Source: Flavobacterium sp.
GTDB lineage: Bacteria; Bacteroidota; Bacteroidia; Flavobacteriales; Flavobacteriaceae
Assembly (NCBI RefSeq): GCF_025352425.1
Contig: NZ_JANXTI010000031.1
Span: 62,001-126,000, forward strand
DNA length: 64,000 nucleotides
Reading direction: 5' to 3'
The position numbers were made by a program, and so were the translations under genes. Below are positions 27,991 through 39,520 of the stretch, piece by piece; position 1 is the stretch's first letter; every line of letters starts with the position of its first letter. Below the pieces are notes generated by a model. The model saw nothing but the letters and a program-made list of their open reading frames with translations. It was not told where the DNA came from and searched no databases.

Positions 27991-28104
27991 ATTTTTAGGA
28001 GCTGATACCTGCTTTACGTTACAATCTTTTTGCTTTGTCACCCTGAGCGCAGTCGAAGGGCTTTTTTAAAGCAAAAAGGATTTCCACTGCAATCAGGGCT
28101 AGGG
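27991..28104 (-). repeat. Composite intergenic repeat, copy C
   Basis: Read on the minus strand it runs from GCCCTAGCCCTGATTG through GCAGTGGAAATCC to CAGCTCCTAA. Its stem arms CTTTTTGCTTT (28026-28036) and AAAGCAAAAAG (28068-28078) pair perfectly around a CCCTTCGACTGCGCTCAGGG core. It fills the gap between pheS and the 135-residue gene. Confidence 0.8.
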
Positions 28105-28110
28105 CTTCAG

Positions 28111-29130
28111 TTATATACTAGACTTAAACTGTTCAAGGAAACGCACATCGTTTTCATAAAACATTCTGATGTCGCCAATTTGGTATAACAACATTGCAAT
28201 ACGCTCGATTCCCATCCCAAAAGCGAATCCGTTGTATTCGTCAGGGTTGATGCCACAGTTTTTCAGAACGTTTGGGTCAACCATTCCGCAGCCCATAATT
28301 TCTAACCAACCAGTTCCTTTTGTAATACGGTAATCGGTTTCGGTTTTTAAACCCCAATAGATATCAACTTCGGCACTTGGTTCTGTAAATGGAAAATAAC
28401 TTGGTCTCAAACGTATTTTGGACTTCCCAAACATTTCTTTGGTGAAATATAAAAGAGTCTGTTTCAAATCAGCAAACGAAACATCCTTGTCAATATACAA
28501 ACCTTCAACCTGATGAAAAATGCAATGCGAACGTGAGGAAACCGCTTCGTTTCTGAAAACCCTTCCAGGTGAAATCGTACGAATTGGCGGTTTGTTGTTT
28601 TCCATATATCGCACCTGAACGGATGAAGTGTGAGTTCTCAGCAATACATCCGGATTTGTTTGGATAAAAAACGTATCCTGCATGTCTCTCGCCGGATGGT
28701 ATTCGGGTAAGTTCAGCGCAGTAAAATTGTGCCAGTCGTCCTCAATTTCCGGACCTTCGGAAACATTGAATCCTATTGTTGAAAAAATATCGATGATTTG
28801 ATTTTTTACCAGTGAAATAGGATGACGAGAACCTATAGTAATTGGCTCTGACGGACGTGATAGATCGCCATAGAAACCTTTTACTTCTTCTTTACTTTCC
28901 AGTTCTTCCTGAATGGCTTTTACCTTTTCTTCGGCAACTGTTTTCAACGTATTTATTACTTGTCCGAAGTCTTTTTTCTGGTCGTTTGGAATATTTTTGA
29001 ACTCCGTAAAAAGTTCTTTAAGCAAACCTTTACTACCCAAATATTTGATACGGAAATGTTCTAGAGCTTCCTTGTTTTTGGTGTTGAATGCTTTAGCTTC
29101 TTCAATATGTTCTTTAATCTTGTCTATCAT
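28111..29130 (-). CDS. pheS: Phenylalanine-tRNA ligase alpha subunit
   Basis: Charges tRNA-Phe with phenylalanine as part of the PheS2T2 tetramer; pheT is not in this window. The 339-residue product has an N-terminal coiled coil (about 1-90, tRNA binding), motif 2 around RTISPGRVFRNEAVSSRSHC with FHQVEGLYID, and the motif 3 region GFAFGMGIERIAMLLY. Normal length. The gap downstream holds repeat copy C. Confidence 0.97.
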   Translation of the reverse strand: MIDKIKEHIEEAKAFNTKNKEALEHFRIKYLGSKGLLKELFTEFKNIPNDQKKDFGQVINTLKTVAEEKVKAIQEELESKEEVKGFYGDLSRPSEPITIGSRHPISLVKNQIIDIFSTIGFNVSEGPEIEDDWHNFTALNLPEYHPARDMQDTFFIQTNPDVLLRTHTSSVQVRYMENNKPPIRTISPGRVFRNEAVSSRSHCIFHQVEGLYIDKDVSFADLKQTLLYFTKEMFGKSKIRLRPSYFPFTEPSAEVDIYWGLKTETDYRITKGTGWLEIMGCGMVDPNVLKNCGINPDEYNGFAFGMGIERIAMLLYQIGDIRMFYENDVRFLEQFKSSI

Positions 29131-29170
29131 CGTTCTGTCGTTGAAGGTGCAAATTTAGGCTTTTTACTAA

Positions 29171-29527
29171 TTACTCAATCACTTCTTTTTCCAGAAAATA
29201 ATTCACAATGGCTTCTTTCATCAAAACCGATTGTTCTCCGGCTTTTAATGGTGGCAATTCCTCTTTGATTTTGTAATGTGGCCAACCATCTTTATCTACA
29301 AAATCAAATTCGTAGAAACCGTAAGGTTCGAGCAAACGGCAAATGGCAATGTGCATCAAATTTAGTTTTTCATCTTTTTTGAAAGCCTGCTTGAATTGCC
29401 CCAATTCCTGCACTCCGATTAAGTATATGATTGCGTCTAAATCCAAAATATCTCCCTCAGCAAACTGATTGGAAAGGATTTGAACGACACTGTCCCAGCG
29501 GGTTTTTAATTGTTCGTCTCTTGACAT
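29171..29527 (-). CDS. Conserved hypothetical protein upstream of pheS
   Basis: A 118-residue cytoplasmic protein (MSRDEQLKTRWDSVVQILSN), mostly helical, with AIIYLIGVQELGQ and a central RLLEPYGFYEFDFVDKDGW segment. It resembles a small conserved Flavobacterial protein of unknown function. It is 40 bp upstream of pheS on the same strand, so possibly co-transcribed. The 3' end falls in a TACTAATTACTCAATCAC-like sequence that resembles the short repeats near yicC and gmk. Confidence 0.75.
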   Translation of the reverse strand: MSRDEQLKTRWDSVVQILSNQFAEGDILDLDAIIYLIGVQELGQFKQAFKKDEKLNLMHIAICRLLEPYGFYEFDFVDKDGWPHYKIKEELPPLKAGEQSVLMKEAIVNYFLEKEVIE

Positions 29528-29650
29528 TTTTTAAATAGAGAAAAGAAAATAGATGATAGATAATAGACTTTTTGTCTAAATTTCAATTACCAGATTCTAA
29601 GTTAGGATTGCAAAGATAGTTACCTAAAAGCTAAAAGCTGAATGCTACAG

Positions 29651-30397
29651 CTAATTTTTAATTTCCTTAATTGCGCTTTCTTCAATCCAACCGGTAGTTT
29701 CATCTGTAAGTTCTACTTTCTTCCAGTTGGCGATGCTTTCCAAAATATAAACTTTGGTTCCTTCATGTATTACAAAAGCGTCTGGCGCAGCACTTTTTGG
29801 TTCGCTTTTTACGGACGCCGTTTCCGCAAAAACAATAGCGGGTCTTTCGTTAGCCATTCGGCCTTTTTCATAAAAACCGGAAGCAGCACTTAAACCAATT
29901 CCGATGAGCCACAGAAACATTCCAAAAAAGAAAATACGCTTCAACATCGCTGTTCCCGAAAAGTAATAACCCACAAAAAACAGCAAAAAGAAGAACCCAA
30001 AAGCGACCGAAATCCAAGCCCAAGTGTCGTAATAGTATTTTGCAGTGAAATCCTGAATCAGTTTACTGAAGCCTACTTTTGGAATGACTTTGATGTCGTC
30101 AATCGCCATTTTTCGGGCAAATTCTAAGTTGGTTTTTATTTCAGTATCATTCGGATTCAGCAATAATGCCTTTTCATAATTGTAAATGGCCGGCGCTACT
30201 TTGTGCAATTTGTAATAGCAATTTCCTAGATTAAAATACAATTCTGCTGATTGTTTTCCTGAGTTTGCAACGCTTTCATAACTCGAAATTGCGGCTTCAT
30301 AATTTTCTTTTTCGTAGAATTTATTTCCCTGGTCAAAAGCATTTTGTGCCCAAAATGTTTGAGAAACGAATAATAGTATTAAAAGTATTTTTTCCAT
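29651..30397 (-). CDS. batE: BatE-like TPR/SH3 protein of the aerotolerance operon
   Basis: A 248-residue exported and membrane-anchored protein: signal peptide ending FWAQ, TPR-type repeats at about 20-100 (AELYFNLGNCYYKLHKVAPAI), two membrane helices at about 125-170, and a C-terminal bacterial SH3 domain (KVYILESIANWKKVELTDETTGWI). This layout matches BatE. It is the last gene of the MoxR/Bat operon and is separated from batD by the GxxExxY element. Confidence 0.9.
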   Translation of the reverse strand: MEKILLILLFVSQTFWAQNAFDQGNKFYEKENYEAAISSYESVANSGKQSAELYFNLGNCYYKLHKVAPAIYNYEKALLLNPNDTEIKTNLEFARKMAIDDIKVIPKVGFSKLIQDFTAKYYYDTWAWISVAFGFFFLLFFVGYYFSGTAMLKRIFFFGMFLWLIGIGLSAASGFYEKGRMANERPAIVFAETASVKSEPKSAAPDAFVIHEGTKVYILESIANWKKVELTDETTGWIEESAIKEIKN

Positions 30398-30443
30398 TTT
30401 TTAACCACGAAGTTCACGAAGAAGGCACGATGGACACAAAGAT

Positions 30444-30827
30444 TTAAAGTGTACCATTGATAATTCTTCGAACACCATCTTTTAAAAGTTTAACATTAAA
30501 ATTAATTAATAATCCCAATTTGCATTCTGATAATTTTAGATAAGTTAGCAATTGTGCCAAATGAACATCATTTAATGCCTCGACTGACTTTACTTCAACT
30601 ATAAATTTATTTTCAACAATTATATCTATTCTGTAACCAATTTCTAAATTGACGTCTTCATATATCAAAGGTAGCGGTTTCTGTTTTTCGACTTTCAGAT
30701 TTGTCTTTTTGAGTTCATAAAAAAGACATTCTTCATACGCACTTTCAAGTAAACCTGGCCCAGGAGCTTTGTGAACTTTCAGTGCGGATTCAAATACAAT
30801 TTTCGATATTTCTTCTTCTGTAATCAT
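30444..30827 (-). CDS. GxxExxY protein (PD-(D/E)XK nuclease-like)
   Basis: A 127-residue protein. The naming motif is G25-L-L-E28-S-A-Y31. Nuclease-fold residues are in place: D68 in GYRIDIIVEN, E78-V-K80 in FIVEVKS, and Q92-L-L-T-Y96 in the following helix, the pattern of the PDDEXK_3 family. It is therefore probably a catalytically competent nuclease-fold protein, of unknown biological role. No signal peptide. It is the only gene between inverted TTAACCAC...GGCACGATGG repeats and interrupts the Bat operon; its last codons overlap the left repeat. Confidence 0.92.
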   Translation of the reverse strand: MITEEEISKIVFESALKVHKAPGPGLLESAYEECLFYELKKTNLKVEKQKPLPLIYEDVNLEIGYRIDIIVENKFIVEVKSVEALNDVHLAQLLTYLKLSECKLGLLINFNVKLLKDGVRRIINGTL

Positions 30828-30836
30828 AAATTTTAT

Positions 30837-30929
30837 TTAACCACTAAGTTCACCAAGAACACACATAGCACACTATTTAAAATTTATTTTTTGTGACCAT
30901 CGTGCCTTCTTCGTGTTCTTTGTGGTTAA
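30837..30929. repeat. TTAACCAC palindrome, right end of the GxxExxY element
   Basis: Left arm TTAACCACTAAGTTCACC and right arm GTGTTCTTTGTGGTTAA are imperfect inverted repeats enclosing about 60 bp. The right arm matches the left end of the element at 30401-30440. About 93 bp, like the gene-less copies at 34513 and 37260. Confidence 0.8.
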
Positions 30930-30933
30930 GACA

Positions 30934-32700
30934 TTATTTTAATTGCTTTTCAAGTTCAGAAATAATTACCACTGCTTTGTCATAATCTTGCTGAATGGCT
31001 GTTTCAGAAGATTGTGCATAACGCGCCAGCTCACAGTTTTCGGTCAGATGGATAAACTCTGAAACCGTTTCTGAATTTGCTTTTCGCGAAAGCAAAAGTT
31101 CGGTTATCTTGTCTTTGCTCATTTCTGAAGTTTCAATGTTTAGCCTGGCTTTTAGGAAATTGTGCATTGCTTTTTCAAGCGCAATATAAAAGGGTTCTTT
31201 ATTGCCCAAATGTTTTTTGGCATCACCCAAATATTTCCTAGCCAAAGCATTCGACTTTTTGATTTTATTGCCCACTACATCATTGTCCATTTCGTCTTTT
31301 TTCCTTCTTCCGACAATCAAAAAAGGGATGGCCAAAAACGGTAAAATCATCAATGAATAAAACATACCGGAACCGAGAAAGTCATTCTGTTTGAGAGGTT
31401 TTAACGTTGTTTTTTGTTTGATATACGCAAACGATTTTGCGGCTTCAAATTTGGTTTTGGAAACATCATTCGGATTTGTTTTTTCTGAACTTGCCACACT
31501 CGGGCCATCCAAAACATTGATAGTTATGGGTTGGGAAGTGATGGTTTTATAACTATTCGAACCCAAATCAAAATAGGTAAAACTTAGTGGTTTGATTTGA
31601 TAATTGCCTTTGTATTGCGGAATTATTGTGTATTTATCTGAAATTCTTCCTGTCATTCCGGTCAATGGAGTTGTAACATTTTCGTCATGAACCGGATCAT
31701 ACATTTCTAAAGCAGAAGGCAAAACCGGCTTTGGCAACGTGAACAATTTCATGTTTCCGGTTCCAACAACACTTACATCTAAATCTAGAGACTCTCCATT
31801 TTTCAATATGGTTTTGGACGGTTTTACTTTGAAATCCATACGGCCGACAGCACCGGAAAAATCTTCGGGCTTTCCTTTTTCAGGCAATGCTTTTACATTG
31901 ATAATTTTACTTCCTGCCGAAACACGTTTGCTGTCTTCGGTAAGTAAGGCTTGCCCCCAAAAATTCCGCTTATTCGTTGGCACCTGGCAATCTATATCCA
32001 ATGAAAGCGGCTCAATTTCCAGTTTTCCGGATTTTTGTGGATATAATACTGTTTTTCGCAACACGACATAGCGGTAGCGTTCGCCTTTAAATATTCCGTC
32101 CTGCGCGACCAATTGTTTGATATCGATATTTTGGCTCCAGAAATCATTGTATTTTGGTTTGTTCAGCTCGCGCCAATTAGTGATTCCAATGTTGTAACTG
32201 AAATACAATTTGTAAACAACGGTAATTGGTTCGTTCAGATACGGATTTGTTTTCGAAATATCCGCAACCAAATACAGATTGTCATCCGCGCTAACCGCCG
32301 GTGCTTCGTTTGGATCTTTTGGAATTTCAACGGCGTTGGTCACATTAATCTTGACGGGTGACGTTTTATAAATCTGCCCATTGATATCAATCGAGGCCTG
32401 TTTTAGAGTTAAAGTCCCTTTTTGTGTAGGCAATAAAATAAAAATATATGATTTATTAAATGAACTTCTTCCGTTTATCCAGGATTGACTCACGGATTGA
32501 CTTGGTCCGCCAACGACTTTAAATCCGCAGGCTTCAAAATTCGGCGGGACAAAATTATCGCCATCCGCATTCATTGTAAAATCAACGCGAAGCCGTTCGT
32601 TTAATCCCAAGGTATTCTTGCTCACTTTTGCTTCAAATTGCACTTGAGCAAAAAGAGATGAGCTGATTAGTAAAACCGTTAAAATTATTATCCTTTTCAT
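30934..32700 (-). CDS. batD: BatD family protein
   Basis: Envelope protein of 588 residues: signal peptide ending LFAQ, a long beta-rich BatD region with repeated Ig-like strands (about 20-430), one membrane helix near 445-465 (MFYSLMILPFLAIPFLIVG) and a cytoplasmic helical tail. BatD is part of the Bacteroidetes aerotolerance/MoxR system, thought to work at the inner membrane with the VWA proteins. A TTG two codons upstream of ATG 32700 is possible; ATG is preferred. It follows batC with a 19-bp gap. Confidence 0.92.
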   Translation of the reverse strand: MKRIIILTVLLISSSLFAQVQFEAKVSKNTLGLNERLRVDFTMNADGDNFVPPNFEACGFKVVGGPSQSVSQSWINGRSSFNKSYIFILLPTQKGTLTLKQASIDINGQIYKTSPVKINVTNAVEIPKDPNEAPAVSADDNLYLVADISKTNPYLNEPITVVYKLYFSYNIGITNWRELNKPKYNDFWSQNIDIKQLVAQDGIFKGERYRYVVLRKTVLYPQKSGKLEIEPLSLDIDCQVPTNKRNFWGQALLTEDSKRVSAGSKIINVKALPEKGKPEDFSGAVGRMDFKVKPSKTILKNGESLDLDVSVVGTGNMKLFTLPKPVLPSALEMYDPVHDENVTTPLTGMTGRISDKYTIIPQYKGNYQIKPLSFTYFDLGSNSYKTITSQPITINVLDGPSVASSEKTNPNDVSKTKFEAAKSFAYIKQKTTLKPLKQNDFLGSGMFYSLMILPFLAIPFLIVGRRKKDEMDNDVVGNKIKKSNALARKYLGDAKKHLGNKEPFYIALEKAMHNFLKARLNIETSEMSKDKITELLLSRKANSETVSEFIHLTENCELARYAQSSETAIQQDYDKAVVIISELEKQLK

Positions 32701-32719
32701 ATTCAAATTTTCAAATTAA

Positions 32720-33466
32720 CTACCAATCTTTTTCAGCTTTTTTAGGATTGGCTTGCACTTTTTGCTTGTTTACCTTGTCCTGAATTTTTTTCTCTTCATT
32801 ATTTACAGCATCTAATAAATTCTCTAAACGTTGTTTTGAAATTCCGCCGGGTTGTGGTTTTGGTTTGCCTTGATCCTGATCTTTATTTTCTTTGTTATCC
32901 TTATCCTTATCGCCGTCTTTTTTATCCTTGTCTTTGTCTTTTCCATCTTTCTTGTCGTCCTTTTTATCCTTTTCTTTGTTCTTATCCTTTTTATCCTTTT
33001 TATCCTTGTCCTTTTTGTCATCTTTCTTTGGCGGGTTTTCCTTTAGCATCTTTTTGGCCAATGCATAATTATAACGAGTTTCTTCATCATCCGGATTGTT
33101 ACGCAATGCATTTTTATAAGCTTCCACCGCGCCACCATAATCCTTGTCTTTCATCAGGGTATTTCCAATATTGTGAAATGCGTTGTGTTTTTCTGTTCGG
33201 GTTTTAGCGTTTTTCAATGCTGTTGCGTAATGGTATTTGGCTTCGCCAGACTGATTTTGCCTGTAAACAGCGTTTCCTAAATTGTAGGAAGCAATCGATT
33301 TCTTCGGATTTTTAGATTCTGACATTCTGTATTCTGCTTCAGCATCATCGTATTTTTTTTCGGCAAAAGAATCGTTTCCTTTTGGCAAATCCTTATCTTT
33401 TTCCTTGTCTTGGGCTTTCGCCAAAAAGGAAATCAAAATCAAACCATATAAAAGCAACTTTTTCAT
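32720..33466 (-). CDS. batC: BatC-like TPR protein with Lys/Asp-rich linker
   Basis: A 248-residue exported protein: signal peptide, TPR repeats at about 50-130 (IASYNLGNAVYRQNQSGEA, NAFHNIGNTLMKDKDYGGAV, NPDDEETRYNYALAKKML), then about 75 residues built almost only of K, D, E and N (about 140-215), and a short C-terminal tail. The TAATG overlap with the batB stop indicates coupling. The low-complexity part is coded by repeated TCCTTTTT-like units and is likely to vary in length between strains. Confidence 0.9.
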   Translation of the reverse strand: MKKLLLYGLILISFLAKAQDKEKDKDLPKGNDSFAEKKYDDAEAEYRMSESKNPKKSIASYNLGNAVYRQNQSGEAKYHYATALKNAKTRTEKHNAFHNIGNTLMKDKDYGGAVEAYKNALRNNPDDEETRYNYALAKKMLKENPPKKDDKKDKDKKDKKDKNKEKDKKDDKKDGKDKDKDKKDGDKDKDNKENKDQDQGKPKPQPGGISKQRLENLLDAVNNEEKKIQDKVNKQKVQANPKKAEKDW

Positions 33467-34503
33467 TATTCCTTTTCATTAAATAAATTCATCTTCTTCA
33501 CCCATTTTGTCTTTTTCTCCAACAGGAAAACATCCAATAACAACAGGAAAAAACCAAACCCCAAAAACCATTGAAACTGCGACTTGAAATCGGCCATTTG
33601 GGTGCTTTCAAATTCTGTTTTCTGAATATTGTCTAAAGCGTGTTTCACATAATCCAGAACTTCTTTAGTCGAATTGCCGTCAACATAACCGCCGCCGGCA
33701 CTTTTGGCAATGGTTCTCAATACTTCTGCATTTCTTTTCGTAATAACGACTTCGCCATTTTGATCGCGCTGAAAGCTTTCTACAATTCCGTTTCTTTTTA
33801 ATGGAATCGTTCCGCCTTTTTCGGTTCCAACACCAATAGTCATTATTTTTAAGCCAACTTTTTTTGCTTCTTCTGCAGCATCTGAAGCGGAATCGGAATG
33901 GTCTTCACCATCGGAAATGATGATTAATAGTTTATTGGTTTTATCTTTTTTATCGATATAGGTTACAGCCAAATTAATAGCCTGGTCAATTGATGTTCCC
34001 TGCGCCGATATCATTCCGGGATTCATGGTTTGCAAAAACATTTTCCCAACACTGTAATCCGTTGTAATCGGTAAAACCGGGAAAGCACTTCCGGAATAGG
34101 CTATGATTCCGATGCGGTCGCTGCCCAAATTATTGATAATCTGAGAAACCAGTTGCTTGCTTTTCTCCAAACGGCTTGGCGCCACATCTTCGGACAACAT
34201 ACTTTTGGAAACATCAATCGCAAAAATGATATCGATTCCTTCGCGTTTTACGGTTTCCAATTTTGTTCCGATTTTTGGGTTAACCAATCCAATTATCAGA
34301 CAAGTTAAAGCCAATAAAATCACAATCAATTTCAAAACAGGTTTGAAAGCTGATTTTTCAGGGCTCAATTTTTTGATTAACTCCAAATCTCCAAACTCGC
34401 GTTGCTTCTTTCTTTTCCAAATTTGAATGTACAGGAAAAGTAGTGCCATTACCGGAATGACAAACAAAAAGTATAAATACCATTTTTCTTCTAACTCGTA
34501 CAT
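33466..34503 (-). CDS. batB: VWA-domain protein BatB
   Basis: Membrane protein of 345 residues with two N-terminal membrane helices (about 8-28 and 55-74), a von Willebrand A domain and one C-terminal helix (about 308-325). The MIDAS metal site reads D97-V-S99-K-S101, with IISDGEDHSDS and TIGVGTEKGGT later. The VWA domain faces the periplasm in the usual model. It overlaps batC by 1 base of start/stop. The upstream gap to batA contains a TTAACCAC palindrome. Confidence 0.94.
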   Translation of the reverse strand: MYELEEKWYLYFLFVIPVMALLFLYIQIWKRKKQREFGDLELIKKLSPEKSAFKPVLKLIVILLALTCLIIGLVNPKIGTKLETVKREGIDIIFAIDVSKSMLSEDVAPSRLEKSKQLVSQIINNLGSDRIGIIAYSGSAFPVLPITTDYSVGKMFLQTMNPGMISAQGTSIDQAINLAVTYIDKKDKTNKLLIIISDGEDHSDSASDAAEEAKKVGLKIMTIGVGTEKGGTIPLKRNGIVESFQRDQNGEVVITKRNAEVLRTIAKSAGGGYVDGNSTKEVLDYVKHALDNIQKTEFESTQMADFKSQFQWFLGFGFFLLLLDVFLLEKKTKWVKKMNLFNEKE

Positions 34504-34512
34504 ATTTCTTTC

Positions 34513-34615
34513 TTAACCACTAAGCGCACAAAGGTTTTTCACTAAGTACACAAAGATTATTTTTTAAATAGAACATCGTGAGCTTTGTGCCTTTTTCGTG
34601 TTCTTTGTGTTTAAA
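34513..34615. repeat. TTAACCAC palindrome, gene-less copy between batA and batB
   Basis: Starts TTAACCACTAAGCGCACAAAGG and ends GTGTTCTTTGTGTTTAAA; the arms are imperfect inverses. It contains GGCAC/GTGCC blocks as in the GxxExxY element ends. It fills the whole batA-batB gap without disrupting either frame. Confidence 0.78.
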
Positions 34616-34618
34616 CTT

Positions 34619-35620
34619 TTATATAAAACTTCTATAAATTGTGTTTCGTAAACTAAACTCAAGCAAGATTAAAACTCCTGCAATCCAGACAAATATCCTG
34701 TATTTTTCATCATAATCATAGAATTTCAGCTCTTGAATTTCCGTAGTTTCCAGTTTGTTGATTGCTGCATAAATCGATTCCAATTTACTGTTACTACTCG
34801 CCCTGAAATATTTTCCGCCGGTATTTCTTGCTATGGTTTGCAATAAATTCACATCAATTTCAACAGGCATCATTTTAAATAAAAAGCCGCCATTTGGAGC
34901 ATAAGCATAAGGAAACAGCGCATTCCCATTCGTTCCAATTCCGATTGTATATACTTTGATTCCATATTCTTTTGCAATTTGCGAAGCCGTTTCCGGTTCT
35001 ATAAAACCTGCATTGTTAACACCGTCGGTCATCAGAATAATCACTTTGCTTTTGGCCTTGCTGTCTTTCAAACGATTGACAGCAGTGGTTAATCCCATTC
35101 CGATTCCTGTTCCGTCCTGTAAAACATTGTCATATTTGATGCTTTTAATAGCTTGTTGAACGATTGCTTTGTCGCTCGTAACGGGCGTTTTTGTATAAGC
35201 TTCGGAAGCATACACCACAATTCCGATTCGGTCATTTGGTCGTTCTTCCACAAAGTTCTCGGCTACTTTTTTCAAAGCTTCCATTCGGTTTGGACTTAAA
35301 TCTTTGGCTAACATACTTCCGGAAACGTCAATTGCCATTACAATGTCGATTCCTTTGGTCGATTTGGTTTGGCTACTGATATCGACTTTTCTTGGACGCG
35401 CCATCGCTATAATCAACGAACTCAACGCCAATAATCGCAATACAAATAAGAATGGCTTTAGTTTGGCCAACAGCGATTTTCGCGCTTTGAAACCTTTCAC
35501 TGAACTTATTTTCAAGGTTGCCGATTGCTGTTTTCTTTTCCAAATTTGCCACAAAACAAGTGCCGGAAGTAATAGAAACAACCAGAAAAACTCAGGATTT
35601 AAAAAACTTACATCTTTCAT
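34619..35620 (-). CDS. batA: VWA-domain protein BatA
   Basis: Membrane protein of 333 residues with N-terminal helices (about 10-27 and 55-75), a VWA domain with MIDAS residues D98-V-S100-G-S102, and a C-terminal helix near 310-327. Also ILMTDGVNNAGF and TIGIGTNGNA. The start overlaps the stop of the upstream 543-residue gene by 4 bp. BatA and BatB are paralogues and are thought to interact. Confidence 0.94.
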   Translation of the reverse strand: MKDVSFLNPEFFWLFLLLPALVLWQIWKRKQQSATLKISSVKGFKARKSLLAKLKPFLFVLRLLALSSLIIAMARPRKVDISSQTKSTKGIDIVMAIDVSGSMLAKDLSPNRMEALKKVAENFVEERPNDRIGIVVYASEAYTKTPVTSDKAIVQQAIKSIKYDNVLQDGTGIGMGLTTAVNRLKDSKAKSKVIILMTDGVNNAGFIEPETASQIAKEYGIKVYTIGIGTNGNALFPYAYAPNGGFLFKMMPVEIDVNLLQTIARNTGGKYFRASSNSKLESIYAAINKLETTEIQELKFYDYDEKYRIFVWIAGVLILLEFSLRNTIYRSFI

Positions 35621-37248
35621 CTTTGTGCTGTTTGTAATTCGACCGAGTTTAACATTCTTTCGGCAATTTGCTGTCCGTATTTATCATCTTCGCGATGCAT
35701 TACCATGATAGTTTGTAAGCCGCCGTTTTGACTGAAAAGCAACACTTCATAATACATTTTGGTTGACTTTCCTTTTATTTTATTCAAAACCGTCATCGTT
35801 CCATAAGCTTTCTTACCGGAAATTCCTTTTTGAGTATCAAAATCTTCTGTCTTCACAATGATGTTTTGCGCGCCTTGTGCTTCCATAATTTTGATGTAAC
35901 CTTCAGCTGTTTTATCCAAATCCATTTGCATTGCCTGTTTGTAAGTTACTGTAGACACCGACATGTAGAAATCTTCCAACAAGCTTCCGTAACCAAAAGT
36001 CTGCATTTCCTTAATTAACGCCATAGCGTCTTTTGGAAGTGTATTTGTGGCATCAATTCGCTTCAGTACTTTTGGCGTTTCCACTCTCACACCTGGATTT
36101 CCATATTCGCTATAAACCCATTGTCCTTCGACTAAATCTTTGGTTGGATGACCTAAGAAATTGTCTTTTACATAGTCAAATCCTTTGAAATATAGTAAAC
36201 CCAAAACAAAAATCATAAGCATTCCGAATACAATTCCAATCGTGGTAATGATACGAACGCGTTTTTGTTTTTTCAGTTTTTGCAAACGAGCCAATTCTTT
36301 CTGTTGTTCGTTCCATAATGCCAGTTCATCATTATCTTCGACAATTTCAGGAATGGATTTATGGATGATTACGATGGAGCTTGAAATCCGTTTTTTGTCT
36401 TCTTCGATTTCATAATCGAGCGGTTTTACCTTAGCAAATTTTACTAAATCGGCCTGCATCAAGACTTTTTCCAGATTTTCTACCGTTTCGTTTGAGAGTT
36501 TCAGTTTCTTTTGCTTTGCCGCTTTGCGCAATCCTTCAATCAGTTCCGAAGTCGTGCTTTCCATTGCCGGAATATGAATTTCTTCCTCAATATAATTACG
36601 TGCAATATCTGTCAGCTCCGAGTAATAATGTTTGATTTCGCCTTTTTGCCAAAGCTCTTTGGTTTCCAATTGTTGCAATAAAGTTGTTGCTTTTTCGATA
36701 GGAGATTTAAAAACAATGGCTTCAACTTTTGGCTTATTTTGTCTTTTTTTAATGAATAGATAAATGAAATAACCCGCAATTCCGATAGCCAACAAGATTA
36801 AAAGGTAAATCCACCAGGTTCCTAATGGACTTTCAGCTTGCGCGATGTCTTTGATGTCGTACATCTTTTGCTTTAGCGTATCGACTTTAACATCGTTAAC
36901 TTCTACTTTGATGCTGTCTGAAAAAACAGGTTTTCCGTTGATCAAAACAGAAATTCTTGGAATAACATATTTTCCGCTGTCGAATTGCGTTAAGCCGTAT
37001 TTTTTGATTAGTTCATATCGCGCACCATTCCTAACCGTGTCAATTTTATACGAGTGAATAACTTCTAAAACGCCAAAATTCTTCGCGAAAGGGAATTTTA
37101 CTTTGGATAATGTATCAACTTCGGTTTTTAAAGTCAACTTGAATTCGGCGCCAATTTTATTTTTGGTAACGTTAACAGAAGTCGTCACTTTTTGGGCAAA
37201 AAGCGAAGTCGATAACAGACAAAATACTATATATAATTTGAACTTCAT
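35617..37248 (-). CDS. Membrane protein of the MoxR/Bat operon, function unknown
   Basis: A 543-residue protein: signal peptide ending LFAQ, a periplasmic beta domain (about 20-130), a membrane helix (about 148-168, WWIYLLILLAIGIAGYFIY), a cytoplasmic helical region (about 175-330), a second helix (about 335-357) and a C-terminal alpha/beta domain to the end. It occupies the DUF58-BatA interval typical of Bacteroidetes Bat operons. The first half resembles the DUF4381-like/BatD-like proteins of this locus. Four-base overlap with batA indicates coupling. Confidence 0.85.
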   Translation of the reverse strand: MKFKLYIVFCLLSTSLFAQKVTTSVNVTKNKIGAEFKLTLKTEVDTLSKVKFPFAKNFGVLEVIHSYKIDTVRNGARYELIKKYGLTQFDSGKYVIPRISVLINGKPVFSDSIKVEVNDVKVDTLKQKMYDIKDIAQAESPLGTWWIYLLILLAIGIAGYFIYLFIKKRQNKPKVEAIVFKSPIEKATTLLQQLETKELWQKGEIKHYYSELTDIARNYIEEEIHIPAMESTTSELIEGLRKAAKQKKLKLSNETVENLEKVLMQADLVKFAKVKPLDYEIEEDKKRISSSIVIIHKSIPEIVEDNDELALWNEQQKELARLQKLKKQKRVRIITTIGIVFGMLMIFVLGLLYFKGFDYVKDNFLGHPTKDLVEGQWVYSEYGNPGVRVETPKVLKRIDATNTLPKDAMALIKEMQTFGYGSLLEDFYMSVSTVTYKQAMQMDLDKTAEGYIKIMEAQGAQNIIVKTEDFDTQKGISGKKAYGTMTVLNKIKGKSTKMYYEVLLFSQNGGLQTIMVMHREDDKYGQQIAERMLNSVELQTAQR

Positions 37249-37259
37249 TTTATCTTTAT

Positions 37260-37347
37260 TTAACCACGCGGTTCACTAAGGTTGCACGAAGCGCACTAAG
37301 GAAAATCTTTGTGACCATAGGGCCTTTGTTGTGTTCTTTGTGGTAAA
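37260..37347. repeat. TTAACCAC palindrome, gene-less copy downstream of the DUF58 gene
   Basis: Starts TTAACCACGCGGTTCACTAAGG and ends TTGTGTTCTTTGTGGTAAAA. It shares TTTGTGACCAT with the right end of the GxxExxY element. It fills the gap between the DUF58 gene and the 543-residue gene. Confidence 0.75.
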
Positions 37348-37353
37348 ACATTC

Positions 37354-38220
37354 TTATCTCGATTTAAAATATCCTAATAATTTTGTCACATAACTTTCGT
37401 CAACTCTTGTATTCACTGTTCCCGAACCGCATTTTGAAAAGACATCTTTAAAATAACTCACTTTATCCTGATATTGTTTTTCATAACTCAATCGCGCTTT
37501 TTTAGAACCGGTATTTACCAATAAAATTTCTCCGGTTTCGGCATCTTCCATTTCCACCATTCCGATGTTTGGCATTTTTTCTTCGCGGATGTCGTAGACA
37601 CGAACACCGGTAATGTCATGTTTTTTTCCGGCAATTTTTAAGGTTTTCTCATAATCCTCTTCGACCATAAAATCAGAAATCACGAATACAATCGCTTTCT
37701 TTTTCTGCGTGCTCGATAGGAATTTCAATGCTTGGGATAAATCTGTTTTTTTACTTTTTGGCTGAAATTCGATAAGTTCACGAATGATGCGCAGCACGTG
37801 AGATTTTCCTTTTTTTGGAGGAATATATAATTCAATTTGGTCGGTGAATAAAATCAAACCAATTTTATCATTATTCTGTGTTGCCGAAAAAGCCATCGTG
37901 GCAGCAATCTCGGTTACAATTTCACTTTTCAGTTGGTTTTTGGTTCCAAAACTTTCCGAACCTGAAATATCAACCATCAACATCATGGTCAATTCGCGTT
38001 CTTCTTCAAAAACTTTGACATACGGTTCGTTATAACGTGCGGTCACATTCCAGTCAATAGCTCGAATATCGTCGCCAAACTGGTACTGACGCACTTCCGA
38101 AAACGTCATCCCACGGCCTTTAAACGACGTGTGGTATTCGCCCGAAAAGATATGATCACTCAGTCTTCGGGTTTTGATTTCGATTTTACGAACTTTTTTG
38201 AGTAAGTCTTTTGTTTCCAT
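37354..38220 (-). CDS. DUF58 domain protein of the MoxR/Bat operon
   Basis: A 288-residue cytoplasmic protein with the DUF58 hallmark YQFGDDIRAIDWNVTAR (about 47-63) preceded by GRGMTFSEVR, and a VWA-like core with a metal-site motif LMVDISGSESFG. DUF58 proteins are regular partners of MoxR ATPases. The upstream gap contains a repeat ending directly before this start codon. Confidence 0.94.
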   Translation of the reverse strand: METKDLLKKVRKIEIKTRRLSDHIFSGEYHTSFKGRGMTFSEVRQYQFGDDIRAIDWNVTARYNEPYVKVFEEERELTMMLMVDISGSESFGTKNQLKSEIVTEIAATMAFSATQNNDKIGLILFTDQIELYIPPKKGKSHVLRIIRELIEFQPKSKKTDLSQALKFLSSTQKKKAIVFVISDFMVEEDYEKTLKIAGKKHDITGVRVYDIREEKMPNIGMVEMEDAETGEILLVNTGSKKARLSYEKQYQDKVSYFKDVFSKCGSGTVNTRVDESYVTKLLGYFKSR

Positions 38221-38225
38221 TTTTT

Positions 38226-38290
38226 CAGTTGTCGGTTGTCGGTTGTCAGTATTTGTAGCAATGATTAACAGCTAACTAGTAACAGAGAAC
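38226..38290 (-). repeat. Intergenic repeat, GTTCTCTGTT...ACTGACAACC family, copy 2
   Basis: On the minus strand it begins GTTCTCTGTT, passes TGTTAAT and ends ACTGACAACCGACAACCGAC, then CAACTG, 5 bp before the DUF58 start codon. The internal GACAACC unit is tandemly repeated. Same block order as in the sufC-sufD gap. Confidence 0.6.
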
Positions 38291-38300
38291 GGATAACTGA

Positions 38301-39305
38301 TTAAGGTACCTCGATTTCGTTTACGATTTTGTTGATGATGTCAACAGAAGTAATGTTTTCCGCTTCCGCTTCATAAGTAACTCCAATCCTGTGACGTAAT
38401 ACATCGTGAACCACGGCACGAACGTCTTCAGGAATTACATAACCTCGACGTTTAATGAAGGCATAACATTTGGCTGCGACCGCCAAATTGATGCTACCAC
38501 GTGGCGAAGCTCCAAAACCGATAAGTGGTTTTAAACTTTCGAGCTTGTATTTTTCGGGATTACGAGTAGCAAAAACGATATCTAAAATATATTTTTCGAT
38601 TTTTTCATCCATGTACACTTCGCGAACGGCTTCTTGTGCTTTAAGAATTTGTTCAACAGAAACTACAGCATTTACTTTTTCATAAGCACCTTTTAAATTC
38701 TGACGTATAACCAATCTTTCTTCATCCATTTTTGGATAATCGATAACAGTTTTCAGCATAAAACGATCGACTTGCGCTTCCGGTAAAGGATACGTTCCTT
38801 CCTGCTCAATTGGATTTTGTGTTGCCAAAACTAAAAATGGCCTGTCTAATTTAAAAGTAGTGTCTCCAATAGTCACTTGTTTTTCCTGCATCGCTTCAAG
38901 CAAAGCAGATTGTACTTTTGCCGGCGCACGGTTAATCTCATCGGCAAGAATGAAGTTGGCGAAAATTGGTCCTTTCTTAATAGAAAATTCGTTGGCTTTG
39001 ATATTGTAAATCATCGTTCCTACAACATCTGCCGGCAATAAATCGGGTGTAAACTGAATACGGCTGAAGCTTCCGTGAACTGCCTGTGACAGAGTATTTA
39101 TGGCTAAGGTTTTCGCCAGACCCGGAACGCCTTCCAGCAAAATATGTCCCTGGCCTAAAAGTCCAATTAACAATCGTTCAATCATGTGTTTTTGGCCAAC
39201 AATGACTTTATTCATCTCCATAGTAAGCAAGTCAATAAAAGCACTTTCTCTTTCAATTTTTTCATTAATTGCTCTAATGTCTAAAGCAGTACCATTTTCT
39301 TCCAT
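38301..39305 (-). CDS. moxR: MoxR-type AAA+ ATPase
   Basis: Cytoplasmic AAA+ ATPase of 334 residues. Walker A is GVPGLAKT (59-66), Walker B FILADEINRAP with D122-E123, then LLEAMQEKQVTI and the sensor ATQNPIEQEGTYPLPEAQVDRF. MoxR ATPases act as chaperones for VWA-protein maturation. It is the first gene of the Bat operon, read from the 215-bp divergent gap shared with the aldo/keto reductase gene. Confidence 0.96.
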   Translation of the reverse strand: MEENGTALDIRAINEKIERESAFIDLLTMEMNKVIVGQKHMIERLLIGLLGQGHILLEGVPGLAKTLAINTLSQAVHGSFSRIQFTPDLLPADVVGTMIYNIKANEFSIKKGPIFANFILADEINRAPAKVQSALLEAMQEKQVTIGDTTFKLDRPFLVLATQNPIEQEGTYPLPEAQVDRFMLKTVIDYPKMDEERLVIRQNLKGAYEKVNAVVSVEQILKAQEAVREVYMDEKIEKYILDIVFATRNPEKYKLESLKPLIGFGASPRGSINLAVAAKCYAFIKRRGYVIPEDVRAVVHDVLRHRIGVTYEAEAENITSVDIINKIVNEIEVP

Positions 39306-39520
39306 AGTTAACTCTATTTATTCTAATGTGTGACGGTTATAATTTTAACATTTCAAAAGTGAAAATTTAATCCCTTACGAGATGTTAACAATGCGTTAAA
39401 ACTTTACAAAACATCCCTATTTTAAGGATGATTTATGATTTTCTTTTTATAATTTTAAGACCTAATCTATTTTCGGGATTTTTCATGTAGAAAATAATTA
39501 GATTTTCAAAGACTAAATAA

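Follow-up and report, generated by a model that had tools for sequence, protein, structure and literature searches.

The unit at positions 30401-30929 of the 64,000-nt Flavobacterium sequence analysed here (referred to below as the window) is, at slightly better than even chances, a minimal selfish element in which a PD-(D/E)XK protein would recognise arrays of short boxes and move both gene-bearing and gene-less copies. A minimal mobile element built around a nuclease-fold gene had already been proposed from the letters alone (hereafter, the sequence-only reading), and the proposal is now supported by the enrichment of the repeats at genes of the same family and by the existence of empty sites, from which we infer mobilisation. 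The GxxExxY family to which the gene belongs has so far been named for a motif alone, yet it is found in 121 of the 150 Flavobacterium genomes sampled, in 1 to 12 copies each. If true, this interpretation would explain the role of the family and the origin of a class of interspersed palindromes, and would add a nuclease-based counterpart to the RAYT/REPIN systems.

The gene unit in the bat operon and its protein

The window corresponds to positions 62001-126000 of contig C95 in the source genome (G000; 2.72 Mb in 104 contigs). Its GxxExxY gene (30444..30827, minus strand) encodes a protein of 127 aa with a PD-(D/E)XK nuclease fold (TIGR04256/PF13366), and is co-directional with the bat operon, between batD upstream (30934..32706, minus strand) and batE downstream (29651..30397, minus strand). 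As the sequence-only reading had it, the unit separates these two neighbours without frame damage, batD ending at 30934 and batE starting at 30397 with both frames intact. The arm downstream of the gene (30401..30441, plus strand) is a box array, TTAACCAC..CACAAAG, and the outer arm upstream of it (30889..30929, minus strand) is an inverted copy of this array. The near-identical inverted ends claimed earlier are confirmed, as 30401-30440 pairs with 30890-30929, with 36 of 40 matches to its reverse complement and an exact 19-bp core, CACGAAGAAGGCACGATGG; the unit has a terminal inverted-repeat score of 33.5, where 300 mononucleotide shuffles reach 15.5 at most. A third arm, additional to the two originally described, lies at about 30838..30878 (plus strand) and forms a palindrome with 30889-30929, which gives a complete palindrome upstream of the gene and just one arm downstream of it. 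In gene orientation, the order is thus arm, second arm (together the whole palindrome), gene, and one arm, while a related unit in genome G071, in a gap of 478 bp, has the simpler layout arm-gene-arm, without the whole upstream palindrome. The arms are short arrays of 7-bp CRCNRAG boxes, with neighbouring boxes mostly 8-12 bp apart, and it is this array, rather than a perfect hairpin, that is their conserved feature.

Two other gaps of the bat operon contain palindromes to which the sequence-only reading had drawn attention, and which do prove to be gene-less and to have arms similar to those of the gene unit: one (34513..34615) lies between batA and batB, the other (37260..37347) between a DUF58 gene and a batD-like gene. 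No Rfam family matches the palindromes at the gathering threshold in a search of 28000-39500; the Rfam Flavo-1 RNA is found at 28001-28104 on the minus strand (71.1 bits, gathering score 42). The source genome has a second GxxExxY gene (L002, G000:C70:8286-8618), with arms of another word (AACCATTAAG..ATTAAG), whose layout is also a whole palindrome upstream of the gene and one arm downstream.

The window protein scores 145 bits against TIGR04256 GxxExxY (cut-off 35), covering positions 2-116 of the 116 of the profile, and 137.8 bits against PF13366 PDDEXK_3 (cut-off 22). At E<=1, the Pfam scan returns PDDEXK_3, Cas_Cas4, DUF7487 and SfsA, and no Y1_Tnp; neither the NCBIfam nor the Pfam scan assigns the gene a DDE or HUH transposase domain. 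The AlphaFold2 model (pLDDT 92.7) is confident and PD-(D/E)XK-like. The nearest solved fold is SSO0001 (4ic1), which we take to be a Cas4, with a Foldseek E of 4.5e-4 and a VIA Z of 10.1 over 102 residues; it is followed by the restriction-endonuclease-like 3ijm (Z 8.6), Cas4 4r5q (Z 7.4) and the Hjc resolvase 1gef (Z 6.8), values under 8 being such as may reflect merely a common arrangement, and lambda-type exonucleases are also among the best solved folds. A single gene between the inverted ends, with D68, E78-x-K80, Q92 and Y96 in place, had been recognised from the start and is found as described, together with E28. The protein thus has a fold of the PD-(D/E)XK superfamily with D68, E78 and K80 present, and nuclease activity is predicted for it. 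Conservation of G23, E28, D68, E78 and K80 across the family is partly built in, because the genes were picked by motif pattern; Q92, Y96, H89, N109 and G105 are outside that pattern, and Q92 is present in 170, Y96 in 171 and N109 in 169 of 171 GxxExxY proteins. Pairwise dN/dS of the gene is 0.03-0.11 in the 9 of 12 pairs for which it could be computed, which by codon comparison indicates a frame under strong purifying selection.

Among 19 GxxExxY members compared with defence models, weak similarity to Cas4, Cas4b, PDC-M36A and RTasPDDEXK was seen (best 3.7e-5). The PDB searched by sequence gave one chance match (E 0.34), and PHROGs a single weak match. When plasmid and phage records were searched with the window protein, the family appeared at E<=1e-5 in 8 of 72,556 of the former and in 0 of 50,697 of the latter.

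Box arrays around GxxExxY genes and their pairing with the protein

The sequence-only reading had made its proposal depend on an enrichment of the repeats around GxxExxY genes, and this enrichment is strong in comparison with other genes. Within 300 bp, at least four inward CRCNRAG boxes are found at 38 of the 44 genus loci scored (52 were given, 8 being dropped for short contigs or no usable frame) and at none of 333 control genes, the latter taken from 20 stretches of 20 kb in carrier genomes, chosen arbitrarily by hand at round coordinates; an inverted-repeat (IR) score of at least 20 is reached by 33 of these 44 loci and by 15 of the 333 controls. Three loci (L002, L041 and L107) have neither an IR of at least 20 nor at least three boxes, and show by eye palindromes or repeats of other words. 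Among named loci from Bacteroidota and other phyla (80 given, 71 scored), 68 of 71 have an IR of at least 20 or three or more inward boxes, as do 15 of 173 neighbouring genes; the three counted misses show boxes by eye and were left as misses. The loci compared are the best-scoring or closest matches and hence nonrandom, pairs and genomes are non-independent, and flank widths vary by test (300, 250, 200 or 150 bp).

The family also matches in 33 of 200 genomes of a Methylobacter-bin sample, where 12 of 22 scored loci (29 given) exceed all 20 shuffles in IR and 13 have at least three inward boxes, and in 23 of 98 genomes of an Anabaena sample, where the corresponding counts are 18 and 16 of 22 scored loci (28 given). 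Of seven plasmid loci, those of Bernardetia (20), Gemmatirosa (69) and Bacteroides finegoldii (24) reach an IR of 20, and those of Sphingomonas (12), a Fusobacteria bacterium (13), Treponema (12) and Prevotella (17.5) are below it; repeated words are visible by eye next to most of these last four, and the Sphingomonas locus has boxes on its upstream side only. The Gemmatirosa plasmid (L122 and L238, L240-L242) carries four GxxExxY matches, two of which are the parts of a single broken gene flanked by long CCGCAGAGGACGCAGAG palindromes.

Is the box array a general companion of the family, or does each gene own a particular one? Several GxxExxY copies with unlike arms are found in one genome, and in all 50 same-genome pairs the score of a gene's own arms exceeds the cross-arm score (means 27.0 and 11.4; 55 of 59 loci usable). 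Across genomes, arm similarity increases with protein identity (rho 0.53, over the 8701 of 9000 drawn pairs that were kept once those with similar outer flanks had been removed); within genomes, no significant correlation is found between protein identity and cross-arm similarity (rho 0.20, p 0.17). When box class (A or not), assigned automatically for 154 of 171 rows, is placed on the tree of 171 proteins, 4 changes are needed, against at least 11 in 100 within-source shuffles, and classes assigned by hand, separately from the automatic ones, need 5 changes against 16 or more in shuffles; recognition by eye was used for several of the box words (types B to G and the TCAGACAAT type). A five-member protein clade spanning the Anabaena and Methylobacter-bin samples uses other repeat words: by eye, L256, L280 and L303 have in common TCAGACAAT or close variants, L303 and L312 belong to the TGATTT class, and the word of L302 is CACGGATT. 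The repeat vocabulary of L256, L280, L303 and L312, all members of this clade, comprises TCAGACAAT, ATCCTG and TGATTT. Each gene is therefore paired privately with its arms, and the type of box goes with the protein; this pairing makes the proposed reading testable at once, since each gene predicts its own DNA target.

Within one element, box letters are common to both arms, at a distance of 0.120 against 0.298 (37 genus loci; 0 of 1000 shuffles as low). Over 34 loci, the variable box letters of the two arms agree at 0.85 and the spacers at 0.41, and spacer agreement between different loci is 0.35. Boxes thus keep their letters and spacers hardly do, so that selection, as judged from these alignments, looks like acting on box words in mirrored order, as mirrored protein-binding words would require, rather than on hairpin pairing. 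Hairpin pairing was rejected as the conserved feature, the spacers barely agreeing between arms.

Empty sites, gene-less copies and rival explanations

Empty sites at batD-batE, on which the sequence-only reading had also staked its proposal, exist in relatives. Genome G148, the sister of the window in the batD/batE tree (support 0.76 with 30 taxa, and 0.98 with batB added and 10 taxa), has operon proteins 86-98% identical to those of the window and gaps of 4 bp (DUF58/batD-like), 6 bp (batA-batB) and 8 bp (batD-batE), where the window has gaps of 105 and 115 bp (gene-less palindromes) and 536 bp (gene unit). The batD-batE gap measures -1 to 12 bp in G148, G133, G065, G119 and G082, and 476-542 bp where a GxxExxY unit is present; the gene is also found in this gap in G029, G070, G033, G105 and G059. 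Presence is patchy within the pair window/G148 and likewise within G071/G065, the gene standing at batD-batE in G071 and being absent from G065. The batA-batB gap, which contains a gene-less palindrome in the window, is occupied by a GxxExxY gene in G112, G117, G047 and G146. The unit and the gene-less palindromes are thus patchily present with clean empty sites, and either move or are lost cleanly; at batD-batE, patchiness could equally reflect recombination or loss as insertion (fork supports 0.76 and 0.93). Some loci look by eye vertically kept, for example L108, L113 and L117 with identical neighbours. A target-site duplication gave no signal in 75 loci (own mean 3.37, shuffled 3.51), in a comparison where unit ends are not base-exact and empty sites come from other species. 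An ordinary terminator or host gene is ruled out as an explanation of the unit, because none of the 333 controls has at least four inward boxes and relatives have clean empty sites.

Gene-less copies are also found elsewhere. Genome G103 has five units of 141-159 bp, 81-98% mutually identical (L355, L357, L359, L368 and L376), with nested outer and inner inverted boxes and mostly unlike wider flanks; their ends are uncertain, because some likeness continues just past the arms. A pattern of two neighbouring boxes has 0-105 matches per genome, its reversed control having 0-2 except for 11 in G036. Matches are more numerous in the 121 carriers of a GxxExxY gene (median 4, maximum 105) than in the 29 non-carriers (median 0, maximum 6; p 5e-9), counts that include the arms at the GxxExxY genes themselves, and the medians in the size-matched range are 3 and 0. 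At 47 genus genes, the strict pattern has a mean of 0.30 matches per gene within 250 nt; after subtraction of this measured value per copy, carriers keep a median of 3.1 (p 1.5e-7, or 2.5e-5 at <=4.3 Mb), whereas a worst-case subtraction of two arms per copy leaves a non-significant excess (p 0.12, or 0.72 at <=4.3 Mb), with only carriers still exceeding 6 (26 of 121 against 0 of 29; 6 of 87 against 0 of 29 at <=4.3 Mb). Arms of the CRCNRAG type are present in 8 of the 29 genomes without a detected GxxExxY gene, with at most 6 matches. Arms elsewhere in the genome are therefore commoner where the gene is present, a correlation that is suggestive and not decisive because the kinship of the genomes is left uncorrected in these statistics.

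Does the nuclease-fold gene spread the palindromes, or does it simply profit from them? The loss of the gene-arm correlation under the worst-case correction would suit a reading, rather unlikely in our judgement, in which another machine (a RAYT, or host replication slippage or template switching) spreads the palindromes and the GxxExxY gene is cargo that profits from its place between the arms. The same holds for S23 genes, which stand in similarly designed arrays that have no nuclease, S23 genes being, to our knowledge, not known as nucleases: a nuclease may thus be unnecessary for making such units, and a shared host process could make them. An IR of at least 20 is reached by 13 of 28 scored S23 loci, in inverted arrays of other boxes; S23 was rejected as a second carrier of CRCNRAG boxes, none of the 28 (30 given, 2 short) having at least three. 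Ten genomes with S23 and without GxxExxY also tell against the cargo reading, with pattern counts of 4, 0, 0, 0, 0, 0, 0, 1, 1 and 0. As for a RAYT, Y1 transposases (PF01797) are present in 9 of the 10 genomes tested, nine of those ten being arm-rich, but none of 19 readable Y1 loci (20 of 41 matches fetched) has at least three inward CRCNRAG boxes, one having three outward, and the inverted repeats seen at 8 of them are of another kind in the three inspected; the Y1 loci thus lend no support to a RAYT as mobiliser of these boxes. Genome G004, moreover, has 52 pattern matches without a detected Y1 transposase, and arms that are private to each GxxExxY copy and follow the protein type are hard to expect of mere cargo. 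Two observations on these other genes may be added. The S23/TIGR02436 loci (L051-L080), four-helix-bundle genes, use the box types TTAGACT, CTAAG, ACAAAG and GATTGAAAG, and at what is apparently one site (e.g. L053, L055, L062 and L067) the words of both arms change together between genomes. The source genome of the window also has a Y1 (RAYT-type) transposase gene (L384, G000:C89:6546-6890) with its own ATCCCGTTAGGGAT-type inverted repeats.

Two further explanations leave movement by the protein aside. Tandem boxes mostly 8-12 bp apart look like protein-binding arrays, with spacers that barely retain hairpin complementarity, and GxxExxY genes occupy gaps within operons and run in the direction of both neighbours at 49 of the 63 loci where both were readable, against 158 of 289 control triples. 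This might be expected if the boxes were operators and the palindromes control sites for a protein that acts, as a DNA-binding regulator or as a nuclease, on its own promoter and on scattered gaps. Such a regulatory role is improbable: conserved regulation would keep the palindromes, and the clean empty sites of close relatives therefore speak against it, as do the near-identical copies at several sites of G103 and the several copies with unlike arms per genome. Still less probable, and very unlikely in our judgement, is an element acting at the RNA level like the 23S rRNA intervening sequences, of which RNase III would excise the transcribed palindrome so that the insertion is tolerated, the protein having no role in movement. 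Sizes are similar (the 476-542 bp gaps at batD-batE and the 428 nt of the Coxiella element), and in both cases an ORF lies between inverted repeats with tandem heptamers adjoining it, for the Coxiella element according to PMC4990558; but the window site is a protein operon and not rRNA, and the low spacer agreement (0.41 against 0.35), next to 0.85 for box letters, suggests selection on boxes and not on pairing.

A proposed way of working and its place among known systems

In the selfish-element reading that we prefer, the unit would be one gene between inverted arrays of 7-bp recognition boxes. Its single-domain GxxExxY protein would recognise its own box type and cut or nick at the arms, and host replication or repair would then help the unit to leave or enter small intergenic gaps, without detectable target duplication. 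REPINs are thought to be moved in trans by RAYTs, and the gene-less palindromes would likewise be arms of the same kind minus the gene, moved in trans. Binding, cutting and mobilisation of the repeats are thus activities that we infer for the protein.

More tentatively, and at clearly less than even chances, GxxExxY genes and their box arrays might represent a phylum-spanning class of minimal mobile element, based on a stand-alone PD-(D/E)XK nuclease and no transposase, which would recognise tandem boxes in inverted arms, spread both the gene and gene-less palindromes, and have produced much of the CACAGAG/CGCAAAG-type interspersed repeats in genomes of Bacteroidota, Cyanobacteriota and others. 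S23 genes with box arrays of their own, rRNA intervening sequences included, would then follow this life style as a parallel branch. The parallel bears on a question of long standing, the means by which rRNA intervening sequences are spread. Mentions of GxxExxY in the literature that could be searched are incidental, subscription papers and preprints being mostly outside this search and priority hence uncertain. The association is undescribed in the accessible parts of papers concerning REP in Flavobacterium or palindromic repeats of Bacteroidetes (including PMC12306157 and PMC3733652), and among the papers listed by a literature search with short box strings none looks related. CGTC repeats, which also occur in Bacteroidetes, have no association with transposase genes according to PMC3733652.

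Among known systems, Cas4, RecB-like proteins and lambda exonuclease provide the nearest solved folds, from which the GxxExxY protein differs as a single domain encoded by a stand-alone gene in repeat arms. PD-(D/E)XK homing endonucleases are small nuclease genes, and the GxxExxY gene resembles them as a small nuclease gene that could spread through cutting; it differs in that no intron or intein is seen around the window gene, and in its inverted arms and gene-less palindromes. Insertion sequences and MITEs have in common with the unit its terminal inverted repeats and gene-less derivatives, but the GxxExxY gene is without a DDE or HUH transposase domain, its arms are box arrays, and at the 75 GxxExxY loci target duplication is undetected and ends are not base-exact. 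The 23S rRNA intervening sequences have inverted repeats and tandem heptamers and were long ago suggested to be mobile, as PMC4990558 describes; they resemble the unit in their size of about 0.4-0.5 kb, in the single ORF between inverted repeats and in the heptamers next to the ORF. The GxxExxY unit differs from them in being intergenic and outside rRNA, at batD-batE, in its unrelated protein, which the NCBIfam scan assigns to TIGR04256 and not to TIGR02436 (S23), and in conserving box letters and not pairing.

The closest comparison is the one with RAYTs and REP palindromes, already drawn in the sequence-only reading. It does not extend to the protein, which has a PD-(D/E)XK fold and is without the Y1/HUH tyrosine transposase domain, nor to the structure of the arms, in which 7-bp boxes are arrayed with free spacers. 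As a mode of operation the parallel is apt: a small gene is flanked by its own palindromic repeats, gene-less doublets lie in gaps elsewhere, and several unlike gene/repeat pairs coexist per genome, as PMC3116915 describes for RAYTs and REPINs.
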